DNA from: Prosthecobacter fusiformis
GTDB taxonomy: Bacteria; Verrucomicrobiota; Verrucomicrobiia; Verrucomicrobiales; Verrucomicrobiaceae
Length of the DNA stretch: 64,000 nt
Assembly (NCBI RefSeq): GCF_004364345.1
Contig: NZ_SOCA01000005.1
Coordinates: 124,001-188,000 of the forward strand
Direction of reading: 5' to 3'
Positions within the stretch are counted from its first letter, which is position 1. Each line of letters begins with the position of its first letter. The position numbers and the translations under genes were made by a program. This document shows positions 48,470-54,540 of the stretch, one piece after another. The notes beneath the pieces were generated by a model. It did not search any database. It was given only the letters and a program-made list of their open reading frames with translations, and was not told the origin of the DNA.

Positions 48470-50326
48470 TTACAGGGGGCAACCCCAGGCAGGGACATCC
48501 GTCTCAAAAGAGACGCGCGTTTGAGTCAGAGGGTGGATGAAGGCCAGCTTCCAGGCATGCAAACACAAGGGGGCGGCGCTTAGATCCAGCGTCTGGGTAT
48601 CCCCCACAGAACCGCCAGGCAGGTAAACGGGGTCACCGACAATGGGAAAACCGAGCTGCCAAAGGTGAATGCGAATCTGATTAGTACGTCCTGTAAGGGG
48701 ACGTGCCTCGACGAGGGCTGTGCCGTCAGCATCCCGGCGGATGACACGGAATTCGGTGCGGGCCTCGCGACCGTTGTCTTCATCCACTTCACGGCTGCCC
48801 AGGGCACCGGGAACATCGCTGATGGGGGCGTCGGAGAAAAAGGAGTCTGTTGGGGGATGGCCTTGAACTTTGGCCAAATAGATTTTTTCCACCGCCCCAC
48901 TGGCGAATTGTTTCTGGACCAGCCCCGCGAAATGGCGGGTGCGGGCCACCACGACGAGGCCGGTGGTATTGGCATCCAACCGATGGCAGGCACGCGGTTT
49001 TTGCGGCTCATACACCTCATGCAGGATATACTGAAGCGTATTGCGATTGAACCGGCCGCCGGCATGCATCGGCAATGGGGCAGGTTTAACGAGCACGAGC
49101 ACGGCTTCGTCCTCATGCACGATCTGGATGTCTGCATTCACATCAGGCTCCACATTGGCGGGTATGAGGCGCAGATAGCGCTCCCCTGCCCTGACGATCA
49201 TGTCAGGAAGCACAGGCTGGCCGTCCTGGTTTAAAATCCGTTGGTCTTCAAAACGCATCAGCAGCTCTGTGCGAGGCACATGAGGCAGGATGGTGATGAG
49301 TGTGTCCAGCAGCGTCAGTCCATCACAAGCCCTGGGGACATTCAGAGGTTGCTGATGATCGTAGGGGGCGCTGCCAGGGAGTGGCGTGATCAGGCTGCGG
49401 ATGGTTTTGTGCCGGGCGGCGATGTTTTCCGCCATCTGCTGCTCCGTCGTTTTATAACAATAGGGACAGGAGACATGCTCCACAAAACGAGCGTCTTGCT
49501 GCTCCGCATCCGACAGCGGGGACTGGCACATAAAACATTGGGTGGACTCGGTCTCGCTCAGCGCCGGGTCCACGCCCACACGTTGATCAAAGACGAAACA
49601 TTCGCCATCATAATGAGCACCGCCGACTTCTTCGAAGTACTTGAGGATGCCACCTTCGAGCTGCCACACCTGCTCAAAGCCTTCACGCTCCATGAACGGG
49701 GCGGCTTTTTCACAACGAATGCCACCGGTGCAGAAGGTGACGATGGGCTGCTGCTTCAAGGCTTCTGGCAGACGACTTACGGCCTCAGGGAAATCCCTGA
49801 AACTGTTCACGCCAATGATGTGTGCGCCTTTGAAAGTGCCGAGCTTCACCTCATAATCATTGCGGGTATCCAGCAGGGTGATGGGGCGGCCTTCGTCCAG
49901 CCACTGCTTTAAAGTATGCGCTTCAATTCGTGGCGAAGTGTATTTGGCTGGCTCGATCCCCTCCACACCAAAGGCAATGATTTCCTTTTTGATGCGCACC
50001 AGCATTCGCCGGAATGGCTGCTCCGCGCTTTCACTGACCTTGGGGGTCAGCTTTTCCAGTCCGGGAATGGCTCGCAGTTCCGACACCAGCAGATCCACTT
50101 CATGCTGGCCTCCAGCGATGAAAAGATTAATCCCCTCGGTGCTCAGCAAAATGGTGCCTTTCAAATCCCAGCCCTTGCAAAGGGCGATGAGTTTTTCCCG
50201 CAATGACTTCAGGTCAGACAGGGTGGCAAATTGATAAGCGGCAATGTTGGTGATGGCCGCAGGGGCTGGAGCAGTCTCAGGCATGGATTGGAAAAACGGT
50301 ATCGGTTGGCATAGATCAGTATTCAT
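48470..50326 (-). CDS. TrhO-type rhodanese / RluA pseudouridine synthase fusion
   Basis: A 618-residue two-enzyme protein from the ATG at 50326 (a second ATG 14 codons in is also possible). Residues 25-250 match tRNA uridine hydroxylase TrhO (YceA): the rhodanese active-site Cys199 in C-T-G-G-I-R-C-E-K, with a zinc-type Cys cluster (C-x2-C ... C-x2-C) near 265-290. A linker leads to an S4-like region and an RluA-type pseudouridine synthase: H-R-L-D-A-N-T-T-G with catalytic Asp451, and R-T-N-Q-I-R-I-H-L. Both halves modify RNA uridines. The C-terminus ends in an overlap with the lipA upstream region only. Confidence 0.9.
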   Translation of the reverse strand: MNTDLCQPIPFFQSMPETAPAPAAITNIAAYQFATLSDLKSLREKLIALCKGWDLKGTILLSTEGINLFIAGGQHEVDLLVSELRAIPGLEKLTPKVSESAEQPFRRMLVRIKKEIIAFGVEGIEPAKYTSPRIEAHTLKQWLDEGRPITLLDTRNDYEVKLGTFKGAHIIGVNSFRDFPEAVSRLPEALKQQPIVTFCTGGIRCEKAAPFMEREGFEQVWQLEGGILKYFEEVGGAHYDGECFVFDQRVGVDPALSETESTQCFMCQSPLSDAEQQDARFVEHVSCPYCYKTTEQQMAENIAARHKTIRSLITPLPGSAPYDHQQPLNVPRACDGLTLLDTLITILPHVPRTELLMRFEDQRILNQDGQPVLPDMIVRAGERYLRLIPANVEPDVNADIQIVHEDEAVLVLVKPAPLPMHAGGRFNRNTLQYILHEVYEPQKPRACHRLDANTTGLVVVARTRHFAGLVQKQFASGAVEKIYLAKVQGHPPTDSFFSDAPISDVPGALGSREVDEDNGREARTEFRVIRRDADGTALVEARPLTGRTNQIRIHLWQLGFPIVGDPVYLPGGSVGDTQTLDLSAAPLCLHAWKLAFIHPLTQTRVSFETDVPAWGCPL

Positions 50327-50421: not shown

Positions 50422-51813
50422 ATGCCCCAGCGCATTGCCCTCTTTGGAGGCAGCTTCAATCCACCCGGCCAGCATCACTCTGTCATTGCACAGCGTCTTG
50501 CTAGCGAGTTTGACCAAGTGCGTGTCATCCCCTGTGGCCCACGACCGGACAAACCAGTCACAGATTCTATCCCCGCTGTTTACAGGGCGGCGCTTGCTGA
50601 CCTGACTTTTGGCAACCTGCCCGGCGTCACGGTGGATCTTTTTGATCTTGAGCAGGCCTCTTTTACACCCAACTGGGATCTGCAAAGCAAGTATGAAGGC
50701 CAGGGCGAAGTCTGGCACGTGGTGGGTGGAGACTTGATAACGGGAGGAGGCACAGGCCAATCACTCATCCAGCGCACCTGGAAAAATGGCCAGGAACTGT
50801 GGGAGTCAGCCCGTTTTGTGGTTCTCACCCGGCCGGGCTATGTCATAGAACCCAGCGACCTGCCTCCAAATTCCCTGGTTTTTGAAACCGATGTTCCAGG
50901 TTCCAGTACGCTGATACGTGAAAATCTCAGCAAAGGGCGCTCGGTGGAAGGTCTTCTCGCTCCACGTGCCCAGGCTTATATCGGCCGCTATGGTCTCTAC
51001 CGCGCACCCAATCCAGGCAACTGGGCACGCCAGAGCCTGAGTGACCAAACTTTCTCTATCCAGAGCGATCCACACAACGCCAAAGCGCAAGCCTGGCTGT
51101 CAGACATTGGTCCGGGTACAGATGAGCAGCCGGGTTTCATCACTGTGCTGGGAGGTGATGGGGCCATGTTACGATGCATCCGTGAGCGTTGGCGTGAAAG
51201 GCTGCCATTCTTTGGTATCAATGCCGGTCATCTGGGCTTTCTGATGAATGCGCCGGAACAGGTTCTCGGTTGTCCGTTCCCACCCTCGGATGTCATTTTG
51301 CGCCAGATGCCGCTGCTTTATATCGAAACAGAAGATCGCGAGGGAAGAATCCAGCAGGCTTACGGCTTCAATGATGCGTGGCTGGAGCGGAGCACGAGCC
51401 AGAGCGCCTGGCTACAGGTCATCGTGAACGGGGTAGAACGCATTCCTAAACTGGTGAGCGATGGCGCTCTCGTGGCCACCGCTGCCGGGTCAACGGCATA
51501 CGCCCGCAGCATGGGGGCCAGCCCACTACTGGCGGATACACCCGCCTGGCTCCTGGTAGGATCCAATGTGATGGAGCCAGCGCACTGGCGCAGCGCCCTT
51601 TTGTCCGTGGACAATACCGTGGAGATCCGCAGCCTGAGTCCTGAACACCGTCCGGTTCAAGCTTATGTGGACGGTTTGAGTATGGGGGAAGTGGTCAGTT
51701 TTCGTGCCCGCCTCAGCCGTGCAGCCAGTGCTGAATTAGCCTTTTGCGCAAGCCACGACATGGCAGACAAGATCGCAGCGATTCAGTTCCATCGTTCCAG
51801 CGAGGGACGCTAA
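50422..51813 (+). CDS. NadD-NadK fusion (nicotinate mononucleotide adenylyltransferase / NAD kinase)
   Basis: A 463-residue bifunctional protein. Residues 1-190 are NadD-like: G-G-S-F-N-P-P-G-x-H-H at 9-19, a variant of the GGxFxPPHxGH signature in which the first histidine is Gly, and S-S-T-L-I-R near 160. Residues 200-455 are NAD kinase: G-G-D-G-A-M-L at 244-250, G-I-N-A-G-H-L-G-F near 272, and D-G-A-L-V-A-T-A-A-G-S-T-A-Y near 347-360. Together they would make NaAD and phosphorylate NAD to NADP; NadE is needed between the steps and is not in the window. Divergent from the TrhO-RluA gene. Confidence 0.9.
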   Translation: MPQRIALFGGSFNPPGQHHSVIAQRLASEFDQVRVIPCGPRPDKPVTDSIPAVYRAALADLTFGNLPGVTVDLFDLEQASFTPNWDLQSKYEGQGEVWHVVGGDLITGGGTGQSLIQRTWKNGQELWESARFVVLTRPGYVIEPSDLPPNSLVFETDVPGSSTLIRENLSKGRSVEGLLAPRAQAYIGRYGLYRAPNPGNWARQSLSDQTFSIQSDPHNAKAQAWLSDIGPGTDEQPGFITVLGGDGAMLRCIRERWRERLPFFGINAGHLGFLMNAPEQVLGCPFPPSDVILRQMPLLYIETEDREGRIQQAYGFNDAWLERSTSQSAWLQVIVNGVERIPKLVSDGALVATAAGSTAYARSMGASPLLADTPAWLLVGSNVMEPAHWRSALLSVDNTVEIRSLSPEHRPVQAYVDGLSMGEVVSFRARLSRAASAELAFCASHDMADKIAAIQFHRSSEGR

Positions 51814-51894: not shown

Positions 51895-52998
51895 TTATTT
51901 CTTCGCCTCGCCGCCGCCAGCATTGGCGATGGCCTGATCCTCAGGCGGCAGGAAGGCTTTGAATCGGCCTTTATCGATGGCTTTCATATAGGCTTCCATC
52001 GGGCTGGCATAACCGTCGCGCAGCTTCTGCCAGATGGAATCGTCCATGAACTGCATGCCCTGGGCCTTGCCGCCGATGATGACGTCATAGAGCTTCTGCG
52101 TGGCACCTTCACGGATGATGGCACCTACAGCCGGAGTGGAAACCATGATCTCATTCACGGCCACACGGCCTTTGCCGTCCGCCTTTTTCATGAGCAACTG
52201 GGCCACCACGCCTTTGAGAGAAGCGGCGAGCATGGTGCGAACCTGGCTCTGCTGTTCGGCGGGGAAAACGTCGATGATACGGTCAACGGTTTTGCGGGCG
52301 TTATTCGTGTGCAATGTGCCGAAAACAAGGAGGCCGGTCTCTGCGGCTGTGAGGGCCAGCGAGATGGTTTCCAAGTCGCGCATTTCCCCCACAAGTACGA
52401 TGTCCGCATCCTGACGGAGGGCAGCGCGAAGACCGTCGGCAAAGGTAGGCGTCTGGATGGGCACCTCGCGCTGGGTGATGATGCTGCGCTTATTTTTGTG
52501 CACGAATTCGATGGGCTCCTCCACCGTGATAATGTGACGGCGGAAGTTGGTATTGATGTAATCCAACAGGGCGGCCAGTGTCGTGGACTTGCCGGAACCG
52601 GTAGGACCGGTGACCAAAACAAGGCCGCTGCGCATGTGGCCAAATTCCTTCACCACAGGAGGAATGCCGAGCTGCTCCAGGCTGGCGATCTTCGTGGGAA
52701 TGATACGGAAGACTGCGGCAAAGCCGTTTTGCTGCTTGAGGTAGTTGCAGCGAAAACGGTGCTCCTCATCCATCTCATAGGCGAAGTCGAGGTCCCCTTT
52801 TTCAAGGTAGCGCTCCCAAGCGCGAGCTTCGCAGATCTCACGCATCATGGTTTCCATGGTGCTGTGAGTCAGAATGTCAGGAGAAATGGCCTTGATGCTG
52901 CCGTGGACGCGCACTTTAGGCGGCTGCCCCTGGCTAAGATGAAGGTCGGAACCACCCAGTTCAATGAGTTGCTGGAAGTAGTTATCAATGATGGACAT
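51895..52998 (-). CDS. pilT: type IV pilus retraction ATPase PilT
   Basis: A 367-residue hexameric ATPase. N-terminal PAS-like domain 1-100, then the RecA-like core with Walker A at 131-139 (G-P-T-G-S-G-K-S-T), the Asp box (V-E-E-P-I-E-F), Walker B (V-G-E-M-R-D) and the His box (G-T-L-H-T-N); the A-I-R-E-type retraction motif region reads A-I-I-R-E-G, with the match shifted by one residue. It pulls pili back and powers twitching. A second PilT-like gene is 50 bases upstream on the same strand. No pilin genes are in the window. Confidence 0.95.
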   Translation of the reverse strand: MSIIDNYFQQLIELGGSDLHLSQGQPPKVRVHGSIKAISPDILTHSTMETMMREICEARAWERYLEKGDLDFAYEMDEEHRFRCNYLKQQNGFAAVFRIIPTKIASLEQLGIPPVVKEFGHMRSGLVLVTGPTGSGKSTTLAALLDYINTNFRRHIITVEEPIEFVHKNKRSIITQREVPIQTPTFADGLRAALRQDADIVLVGEMRDLETISLALTAAETGLLVFGTLHTNNARKTVDRIIDVFPAEQQSQVRTMLAASLKGVVAQLLMKKADGKGRVAVNEIMVSTPAVGAIIREGATQKLYDVIIGGKAQGMQFMDDSIWQKLRDGYASPMEAYMKAIDKGRFKAFLPPEDQAIANAGGGEAKK

Positions 52999-53048: not shown

Positions 53049-54149
53049 CTAGCTTTGGAAGAACAAGCGCATTTGTTGCTTATCCTCGGAGCGGGATTCA
53101 CACTCCTCACGGCTGATAAGGCCTTTGCTGTAAAGGTTTCGCAGGGAGTCATCCATCGTGATCATGCCGACGTTTTTTCCGGTCTGCATCACACCGTTGA
53201 GCATGTAGGTTTTACCATCGCGGATACATGCGGCCACAGCCGGGGTATTAACGAGAAGCTCCACCGCCATCGCTCGACCGTTGCCATCCGTTTTCGGGAC
53301 GAGCTGCTGGGAAATGATCCCGCGGAGAGACTCAGAGACCATGATGCGGATCTGGTCGCGTTGATCGGGTGGGAAAACGTCCAGCACACGGTCAAGTGTG
53401 CGAGCGCTGTTTCCTGTATGCAGGGTTCCCAACACCAAGTGACCCGTTTCAGCAGCTGTGATGGCCAGGGAAATAGTCTCCAAGTCACGCATTTCACCCA
53501 CCATGATGATGTCCGGATCTTCACGCAAAGCACCACGAAGAGCTGCCGCAAAGGAATCCGTATGGGTGCCGACTTCGCGCTGGTTTACATGGCAGCTTTT
53601 CGGGTTGATCACATACTCAATGGGATCTTCCAGGGTAATGATGTGATCCTGGCGCTCCTTGTTAATTTCATCCACCAGCGCAGCCAGAGTGGTCGATTTT
53701 CCGCAACCAACTGGGCCGGTGACGAGCACGAGCCCGTTGTGATAACGGATCAGCGTGCGAACGGTTTCAGGCAGGCCCAGTTCTTCCACAGAGCGGATGC
53801 TGGTACTGATGATGCGGAAAGTGATGTCAATGCCCAAGCGTTGCTGGATGACGGAGGCGCGGAAACGCCCGTAGTCAGGGGAGTAGGCGAAATCGACATC
53901 TCCTTTATTCTCCAACTGATGGATTTGAGCCTCGGTGAGGAAACTGTAGGCGAGTCGCCGGGTATCTTCTGGACTCAGTGCAACCGAATTTGTCCAGATC
54001 GGTGTCAGGTTGCCAAAACGTCTCCAGATAGGTTGGGCCGCAGTGGCGAGATGCAAATCGGATGCATCATACTGCATGCAAAAACGCAGATAATCATCCA
54101 CATGGCCCAGAACGGGCACGAGGTCTTGGGGGGCAGCTTGGTCGGACAT
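53049..54149 (-). CDS. PilT/PilU-like type IV pilus retraction ATPase
   Basis: A 366-residue ATPase from the ATG at 54149; an ATG at 54182 would overlap the upstream gene. Walker A reads G-P-V-G-C-G-K-S-T, with Asp box (L-E-D-P-I-E-Y), Walker B (V-G-E-M-R-D) and His box (G-T-L-H-T-G). It resembles PilT but has a longer N-terminal lead, as in PilU-like paralogues. It lies directly before pilT on the strand and is probably cotranscribed; it likely assists retraction. Assignment to PilU by sequence alone is not firm. Confidence 0.9.
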   Translation of the reverse strand: MSDQAAPQDLVPVLGHVDDYLRFCMQYDASDLHLATAAQPIWRRFGNLTPIWTNSVALSPEDTRRLAYSFLTEAQIHQLENKGDVDFAYSPDYGRFRASVIQQRLGIDITFRIISTSIRSVEELGLPETVRTLIRYHNGLVLVTGPVGCGKSTTLAALVDEINKERQDHIITLEDPIEYVINPKSCHVNQREVGTHTDSFAAALRGALREDPDIIMVGEMRDLETISLAITAAETGHLVLGTLHTGNSARTLDRVLDVFPPDQRDQIRIMVSESLRGIISQQLVPKTDGNGRAMAVELLVNTPAVAACIRDGKTYMLNGVMQTGKNVGMITMDDSLRNLYSKGLISREECESRSEDKQQMRLFFQS

Positions 54150-54162
54150 GAGAGGGGTAAAA

Positions 54163-54540
54163 TCACCCACGTGGGTGTTCACCCTCGTGGCGAGAGAAAT
54201 GTTGGGTCAGATAAGATTGGAGAAATTGGCTTCCATATTTCCACGCAGTCTGTCGCGCCATGGCTATCACAGGCGTCAGAATAAGTGCAATAAGGCCGCT
54301 CTTTGTAGCGGAAGCGGTCAAGTTGTCACGCTCAATCTTAGCGTGCTTCGGCGGCATTAAGAATCGCACGATCAAAAGCCCACCGGCAGCCGCAACGCCA
54401 ATCCAGACGAACGGATGCGAACGAACGGACCGGGTAAGAATAAACTTGGGGTTAAACTCCTCGCCCGCGAGCTGCAAGTGGGTGGACAACTGGATACGGG
54501 CATAGTCCAGATCCTTGAGGGCTTGCTGTTTAGGAGTCAT
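54163..54540 (-). CDS. small membrane protein of the YqjD/YqjE cluster, unknown
   Basis: A 125-residue protein with a membrane segment at about 43-62 and a second weaker one near 83-95, and charged ends. It has no family I can name with confidence (DUF3618-like proteins are comparable). It overlaps the stop of the phage-holin-like gene by four bases (ATGA), so the two are translated together. It may be part of an envelope-stress unit like the YqjD-YqjE-YqjK cluster. Confidence 0.7.
   Translation of the reverse strand: MTPKQQALKDLDYARIQLSTHLQLAGEEFNPKFILTRSVRSHPFVWIGVAAAGGLLIVRFLMPPKHAKIERDNLTASATKSGLIALILTPVIAMARQTAWKYGSQFLQSYLTQHFSRHEGEHPRG

Follow-up and report, generated by a model that had tools for sequence, protein, structure and literature searches.

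The window, a stretch of 64,000 nucleotides from the Prosthecobacter fusiformis genome, carries on its forward strand a gene whose single product joins a NadD-fold half to an NAD kinase half. The gene lies between two reverse-strand genes: it diverges from one for a TrhO/RluA-type fusion (48470-50326) and converges with one for a T2SSE-family ATPase (51895-52998). Its features are the following.

50422-51813, forward: NadD-NAD kinase fusion gene, 463 codons plus stop (ATG at 50422, stop ending at 51813)
50422-51006, forward: NadD-fold half, residues 1-195 (match to 3mla_B, model range 2-195)
50446-50478, forward: GGSFNPPGQHH, residues 9-19, in which GxHH replaces HxGH and the catalytic-type H19 is retained (alignments)
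50542-50553, forward: RPDK, residues 41-44, with D43 for E. coli His45 and K44 for Arg46 (alignments, PMC1249556)
50725-50733, forward: GGD, residues 102-104, with D104 as the counterpart of E. coli Asp109 (alignments)
50902-50919, forward: SSTLIR, residues 161-166, the counterpart of E. coli SATIIR (alignments)
51037-51804, forward: NAD kinase half, residues 206-461 (match to 7qvs_A, model range 207-461)
51151-51162, forward: GGDG of NAD kinase, residues 244-247, kept in all 51 distinct fusions
51370-51375, forward: ND, residues 317-318 (the N-E/D of NAD kinase), with N in 51/51 fusions, D in 48/51 and E in 3/51

Among the neighbors, the 618-aa product of 48470-50326 joins TrhO (UPF0176_N plus rhodanese) to an RluA-family pseudouridine synthase. 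Two T2SSE-family ATPase genes, presumably PilT-like, adjoin each other at 51895-52998 and 53049-54182, both on the reverse strand.

The preliminary description had placed NadD-like and NadK domains in one protein, and this is borne out by Pfam, NCBIfam, and solved-structure matches. The fusion protein passes the Pfam cut-offs for CTP_transf_like (PF01467; residues 7-167, 1e-8, 35.9 bits against 21) and NAD_kinase (PF01513; residues 219-277, 7.9e-8, 33.1 bits against 25.5). NAD_kinase_C (PF20143), at 18.2 bits, falls short of its 23.7-bit cut-off, but the structural match to NAD kinase still spans residues 207-461. Two of six scanned relatives of the fusion (L173 and L171) score below the Pfam cut-off for PF01467. 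Two AlphaFold2 models were used for structure comparison. In the first (15 fusions in the input; pLDDT 84.4, pTM 0.86), the NadD half matched 3mla_B with a Z of 20.4 (rmsd 2.3, 178 aligned), and in the second (41 fusions in the input; mean pLDDT 90.6, pTM 0.90), the kinase half matched Pseudomonas aeruginosa NADK, 7qvs_A, with a Z of 26.7 (rmsd 2.7, 252 aligned).

The closest known system for the N-terminal half is bacterial NadD: its top NCBIfam match is TIGR00482 (70.2 bits over residues 7-193, below the curated cut-off of 112.45). Shared with this family and with E. coli NadD are the fold, GGxF(D/N)P, the second His of the motif, the basic loop residue, GxD, the Trp at E. coli position 117, and the SxxxxR stretch. 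The fusion differs in its GxHH (HxGH in NadD), in Asp and Arg at the positions of His45 and Pro43, in a longer GxD-to-Trp stretch, in a score below the cut-off, and in the attached kinase. For the C-terminal half, NF003406/PRK04761 NAD kinase, which we take to be alphaproteobacterial, is the top model by far (145.7 bits over 230-457, against 61.7 bits for the next), but the score is below the curated cut-off of 211 and the kinase here forms the C-terminal half of a fusion. This half has TAAGSTAY where E. coli NadK has TPTGSTAY. NadD or NAD kinase domains are joined to a second part in PRK07152, presumably NadD with an HD domain, and in PRK14076, presumably an NADP phosphatase/NAD kinase; both are weak matches to the fusion, their partners are other ones, and, unlike the fusion, neither couples NadD with NAD kinase.

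HxGH serves as the signature of the nucleotidyltransferase superfamily, and the fusion departs from it. With the numbering of E. coli NadD (MG1655), which equals that of the fusion up to residue 19, H16 is replaced by G and G18 by H, while H19 is unchanged. The glycine in place of the first histidine had already been pointed out in the preliminary description and proved to be a lineage trait, since G16 is present in 50 of 51 distinct fusions (GxHH), with SxHH in the remaining one; two more changes, Gly to His at 18 and His45 to Asp (residue 43), come in addition. H18, H19, D43 (the E. coli His45 counterpart), D104 (Asp109), W120, and R166 are each found in 51/51, and K44 (Arg46) in 49/51. The set of 51 was obtained from 108 full-length frames kept after those bearing stops or N were removed, followed by removal of identical or contained proteins; an earlier set of 31 distinct fusions, drawn from 40 with one stop-containing row removed and two trimmed at the start, gave the same residue pattern.

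We further aligned 19 fusion halves with E. coli NadD and 37 canonical NadDs, of which 36 came from the phylum and one from a MAG titled Acidobacteria. Position 16 is G in 18/19 and S in 1/19 fusions versus H in 37/37 canonical NadDs, and position 18 is H in 19/19 versus G in 36/37 and A in 1/37. Position 19 is H in all 19 fusions and in all canonical NadDs aligned. The substrate loop changes as well, with D in 19/19 fusions versus H in 34/37 canonical NadDs at E. coli position 45, and K (17/19), Q (1/19), or I (1/19) versus K or R (37/37) at position 46. The Asn at position 13 is non-diagnostic, as 18 of the 37 canonical NadDs have it too. K44 is replaced by I in L173 (genome G544), which is also the SxHH protein, and by Q in L171 (G580). 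Neither the T/HxGH motif of NadD nor His45 of the substrate loop is found in the fusions, the latter position being Asp. Judged from these alignments, the motif rearrangement is no noise and lies far beyond chance.

Published mutants of E. coli NadD indicate which of these positions matter. H19A kept 0.62% of activity, D109A 0.038%, and R46A was hit hardest; T11A kept 2%, H45A 4%, N40A 23%, and S110A 80%, D13V was reduced, and His16 and Gly18 do not appear among the mutated positions of the mutagenesis section (PMC1249556). The same text describes His45 as stacking onto the pyridine ring of nicotinate mononucleotide (NaMN) and gives the superfamily motif as T/HxGH (PMC1249556). The counterparts of His19, Arg46 (or Lys), and Asp109 are present in the window protein as H19, K44, and D104. 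By the mutant activities reported there (PMC1249556) and the conservation found here, the fusions therefore preserve the equivalents of the three positions at which substitution was most harmful and differ at His45. CoaD of P. fusiformis has TxGH, that is, Thr at the first motif position; from this and the T/HxGH notation, the first His is dispensable across the superfamily, and replacement of Gly18 by His is the more unusual of the motif changes. The preliminary description had proposed that the fold tolerates the change by using the His at 18 or 19. Because H19, K44, and D104 are retained, the version that uses His19 fits best.

The fusion is the only candidate for either enzyme found in this organism. 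The assembly (G000; 5.83 Mb, 32 contigs, 99.91% complete) holds four PF01467 matches at E<=1, namely CoaD, an HldE-C-like/PurN fusion, the NadD-NAD kinase fusion, and RibF. No TIGR00482 match is better than the fusion, and the one further match (L013, E 0.36) is weak. The PF01513 matches are the fusion, two DAGK/YegS-type kinases, and three phosphofructokinases. Profile searches with PF01467, PF01513, and TIGR00482 thus found no second NadD or NAD kinase in the genome, and the search for another nadD that the preliminary description had proposed, made with PF01467 and TIGR00482, returned no separate gene. Canonical pathway members accompany it: NadA was found, and NadE (672 residues) combines a CN_hydrolase with an NAD_synthase part and scores 871 bits to NF002730 (cut-off 473). 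Two other PF02540 matches in the genome are presumably GuaA-like and MnmA-like. The HldE-C-like/PurN protein (L002, contig C2, 1414-2481) is itself a 355-aa fusion of an HldE-C-like heptose-1-phosphate adenylyltransferase with PurN, scoring 181.2 bits to TIGR02199 (cut-off 181.5) and 191.4 bits to TIGR00639 (cut-off 150.1). A fused, glutamine-using NadE of the type found here is described in PMC3376133.

The same arrangement extends across Verrucomicrobiaceae. At 1e-6, TIGR00482 matched 63 of 68 genomes of the family, the window's included, and none of the 68 exceeded the curated cut-off. The best match lay in a frame of at least 461 aa in 59 of the 63, and 57 of those frames also matched PF01513. 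Four genomes had shorter best frames (G439, G021, G435, and G436); the fusion frame of G439 reaches a contig edge, and the other half of that in G021 sits on a different contig. The only other TIGR00482 matches, in G005, G010, G435, and G446, are partial (profile positions 1-72, frames of 167-193 aa), and five examined partial matches from other places (L162-L166, profile positions 1-72) carry the CoaD-type GSFDPxTNGH. No separate NadD was found at 1e-6 with TIGR00482 across the 68 genomes. PF01513 matched 59/68 genomes at 1e-6, 57 of them in frames of at least 461 aa, and the remaining two are a separate kinase in G021 and a broken fusion frame in G455. Five of the 68 genomes (78-90% complete) had no NadD match at 1e-6, and in two of these five a fusion piece or a broken fusion frame is present. 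The fusion is the sole copy found of both enzymes in the Verrucomicrobiaceae genomes searched. Its relatives titled Prosthecobacter, Brevifollis, Phragmitibacter, and Verrucomicrobia(ceae) share 64-84% identity over the best segment, and two further relatives, one titled Acidobacteria, share 50% (best segment). The separate NAD kinase of G021 (L139, contig C393) clusters with those of alphaproteobacteria and possibly reflects contamination.

Outside the family, the fusion is uncommon. The exact FNPPGxHH pattern occurs in 7 of 387 phylum genomes (six Verrucomicrobiaceae and one of another family), and NadD above the TIGR00482 cut-off occurs in 361 of 387. The fusion is also present in three further families. 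It is encoded as well in one more genome of the same order (G027, 83% complete), where the only further hit for NadD or kinase at 1e-4 was CoaD-like. In another order, searched with a distant fusion as query, it occurs in 6 of 147 genomes among the matches listed, three from one genus (G286, G499, and G485) and three from another (G580, G479, and G544). On other contigs, G544 and G479 encode a canonical NadD with HxGH and a canonical NAD kinase besides the fusion. G580 has a canonical NAD kinase besides it, with no separate NadD at 1e-5 among the matches listed, and G286 has a canonical NadD, with no other kinase at 1e-4; G499 and G485 have the fusion alone at 1e-5 among the matches listed. 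A MAG titled Acidobacteria (G459), whose binning is unchecked, contains the fusion, a canonical NadD, and a canonical NAD kinase. The canonical NadDs of G286, G544, and G479 form one group (SH-aLRT 90), which argues against stray contamination. In these genomes and in the MAG, which encode separate enzymes as well, the fusion is a surplus copy that perhaps acts on a different substrate. As for other NadD-kinase fusions in the phylum, four further frames of more than 400 aa among the matches listed, and a fifth of 349 aa, had no match to E. coli NadK. No viral relatives were confirmed, and none of 53 plasmid records covered 80% of the query; the ten plasmid matches listed concern the kinase half only and are NAD kinases of alphaproteobacteria.

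In the trees of each half, the 19 fusions cluster together (SH-aLRT 100 and 99), indicating, within the limits of these quick trees, a single origin of the fusion. The NadD-half tree, which had no alphaproteobacterial NadD, joins the fusions to three canonical NadDs from the same order (SH-aLRT 95), though by a branch 2.16 changes per column in length. The kinase-half tree, which is unrooted, has three deep groups (fusion, alphaproteobacterial, and other), so descent of the kinase half from alphaproteobacteria is suggested by scores only. The gene states seen are an extra copy of both enzymes, a missing separate kinase, and the absence of both separate genes; from these, we infer a stepwise replacement of the separate enzymes by the fusion.

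Purifying selection acts on both halves. Median dN/dS was 0.10 for the NadD half and 0.064 for the kinase half over 20 pairs (identity >85%, 0.15<dS<1), 0.211 and 0.139 over 59 pairs, and 0.233 and 0.213 over 423 pairs with 0.1<dS<1.6, where dS is near saturation. In the outside genus g227, where canonical copies exist, decay of the NadD half was considered: the PF01467 scores of its three fusions are 22.2 (L172), 19.7 (L173), and 18.6 bits (L171) against a cut-off of 21, and K44 is gone in two of them. Their mutual identities are 0.63-0.70 for the NadD halves and 0.69-0.71 for the kinase halves, and family pairs of like kinase identity have NadD-half medians of 0.64 (296 pairs) and 0.60 (413 pairs). 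Decay is thus unsupported and was rejected, as the NadD-half identities are not below those of comparable family pairs.

The reading that we favor, and regard as probable from the comparative data, is an active bifunctional enzyme, NaMN adenylyltransferase and NAD kinase, with NadE acting between the two steps and a rebuilt NadD active site. The N-terminal half would adenylate nicotinate mononucleotide with ATP to NaAD, the reaction being carried by H19 together with K44 as the basic residue of the loop and D104 as the aspartate of GxD, and the invariant His18 and Asp43, in place of Gly18 and His45, would make up for the lost residues. A separate glutamine-dependent NadE would then make NAD, which the C-terminal half would phosphorylate to NADP. 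Both activities, NaMN as the main substrate, and the compensation by His18 and Asp43 are what we infer. Direct hand-over of product would not be expected with NaMN as the substrate, because NadE acts between both steps. In favor of this reading, the fusion is the only NadD candidate and the only NAD kinase found in the genome, NadA and a NadE that has a nitrilase-type half provide canonical steps around it, K44 is nearly invariant and H19 and D104 fully so, both halves are under purifying selection, and CoaD indicates that a residue other than His is acceptable at the start of the motif. Against it stand the 4% activity of E. coli H45A (PMC1249556), with Asp at that position in the fusions, the TIGR00482 score of 70 bits against 112, the canonical NadD and NAD kinase beside the fusion in G544 and G479 and the NadD in G286, and the 5 of 68 family genomes without a NadD match at 1e-6. 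K44 is also I or Q in two of the three fusions of one outside genus, yet the NadD halves there are about as conserved as in Verrucomicrobiaceae.

A shift of the NadD half to NMN is an unlikely alternative, though one that would explain why the two domains are joined: the steps of the two halves would then be consecutive, from NMN to NAD to NADP, by-passing NadE. The residue described as stacking onto the NaMN ring in E. coli (PMC1249556) is Asp in 51/51 fusions, NMN-using NadM-type enzymes exist (PMC3376133), and a duplicate in G544 and G479, which have canonical NadD and NAD kinase, would want a different job. However, the fusion is the only candidate found in Verrucomicrobiaceae, where NadA and the two-domain NAD synthetase point to NaMN, and substrate choice is not fixed by residue identity alone. 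We hold similarly doubtful a broader version, a two-step NADP-forming enzyme shifted towards NMN, with a re-invented center in which His18 and Asp43 would jointly replace His16, Gly18, and His45, and NMN would pass through NAD to NADP on one polypeptide; it would have arisen once, spread as an extra gene, and displaced both parents in one family.

Less credible still is a catalytically dead NadD half that senses NaMN, NaAD, or ATP and tunes the NAD kinase. The altered HxGH and His45 and the canonical NadD that accompanies the fusion in G286, G544, and G479 are in keeping with it, but H19 and D104 are invariant in 51 fusions, and the family would be left without a detectable NaMN adenylyltransferase, with no separate NadD in 68 genomes at 1e-6. 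The preliminary description had offered NaMN sensing as the other option; its domains, fusion, and altered motif stand, and the separate NadD that it named as a refutation was not found by the profile searches. Sensing is the part that became less likely in P. fusiformis, as the organism would then have no detectable NaMN adenylyltransferase. Where a canonical NadD (G286, G544, G479, and G459) or kinase (G544, G479, G580, and G459) lies beside the fusion, another role is possible. An assembly or frame artefact joining two genes is next to impossible: several relatives are fragmented assemblies and a few frames are broken or at a contig edge, but both halves lie in one long frame in 57 of 68 family genomes, including the single-contig G453 and G458, and the fusion recurs in three further families, which rules it out.

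Searches of open-access full texts turned up no description of a NadD-NAD kinase fusion, and protein databases may list this arrangement with no publication attached. At least 51 distinct proteins make up a lineage that has retained just the second motif His and, linked to this, altered its substrate loop in an apparently essential enzyme; the lineage so offers a natural test of which motif residues catalysis requires. The fusion also brings two non-consecutive NAD(P) steps into one protein, and present-day lineages appear to preserve intermediates, in which it accompanies both separate genes, accompanies only a separate NadD, or stands alone. In Verrucomicrobiaceae, two essential steps of NAD and NADP synthesis appear to depend on a single fused protein.
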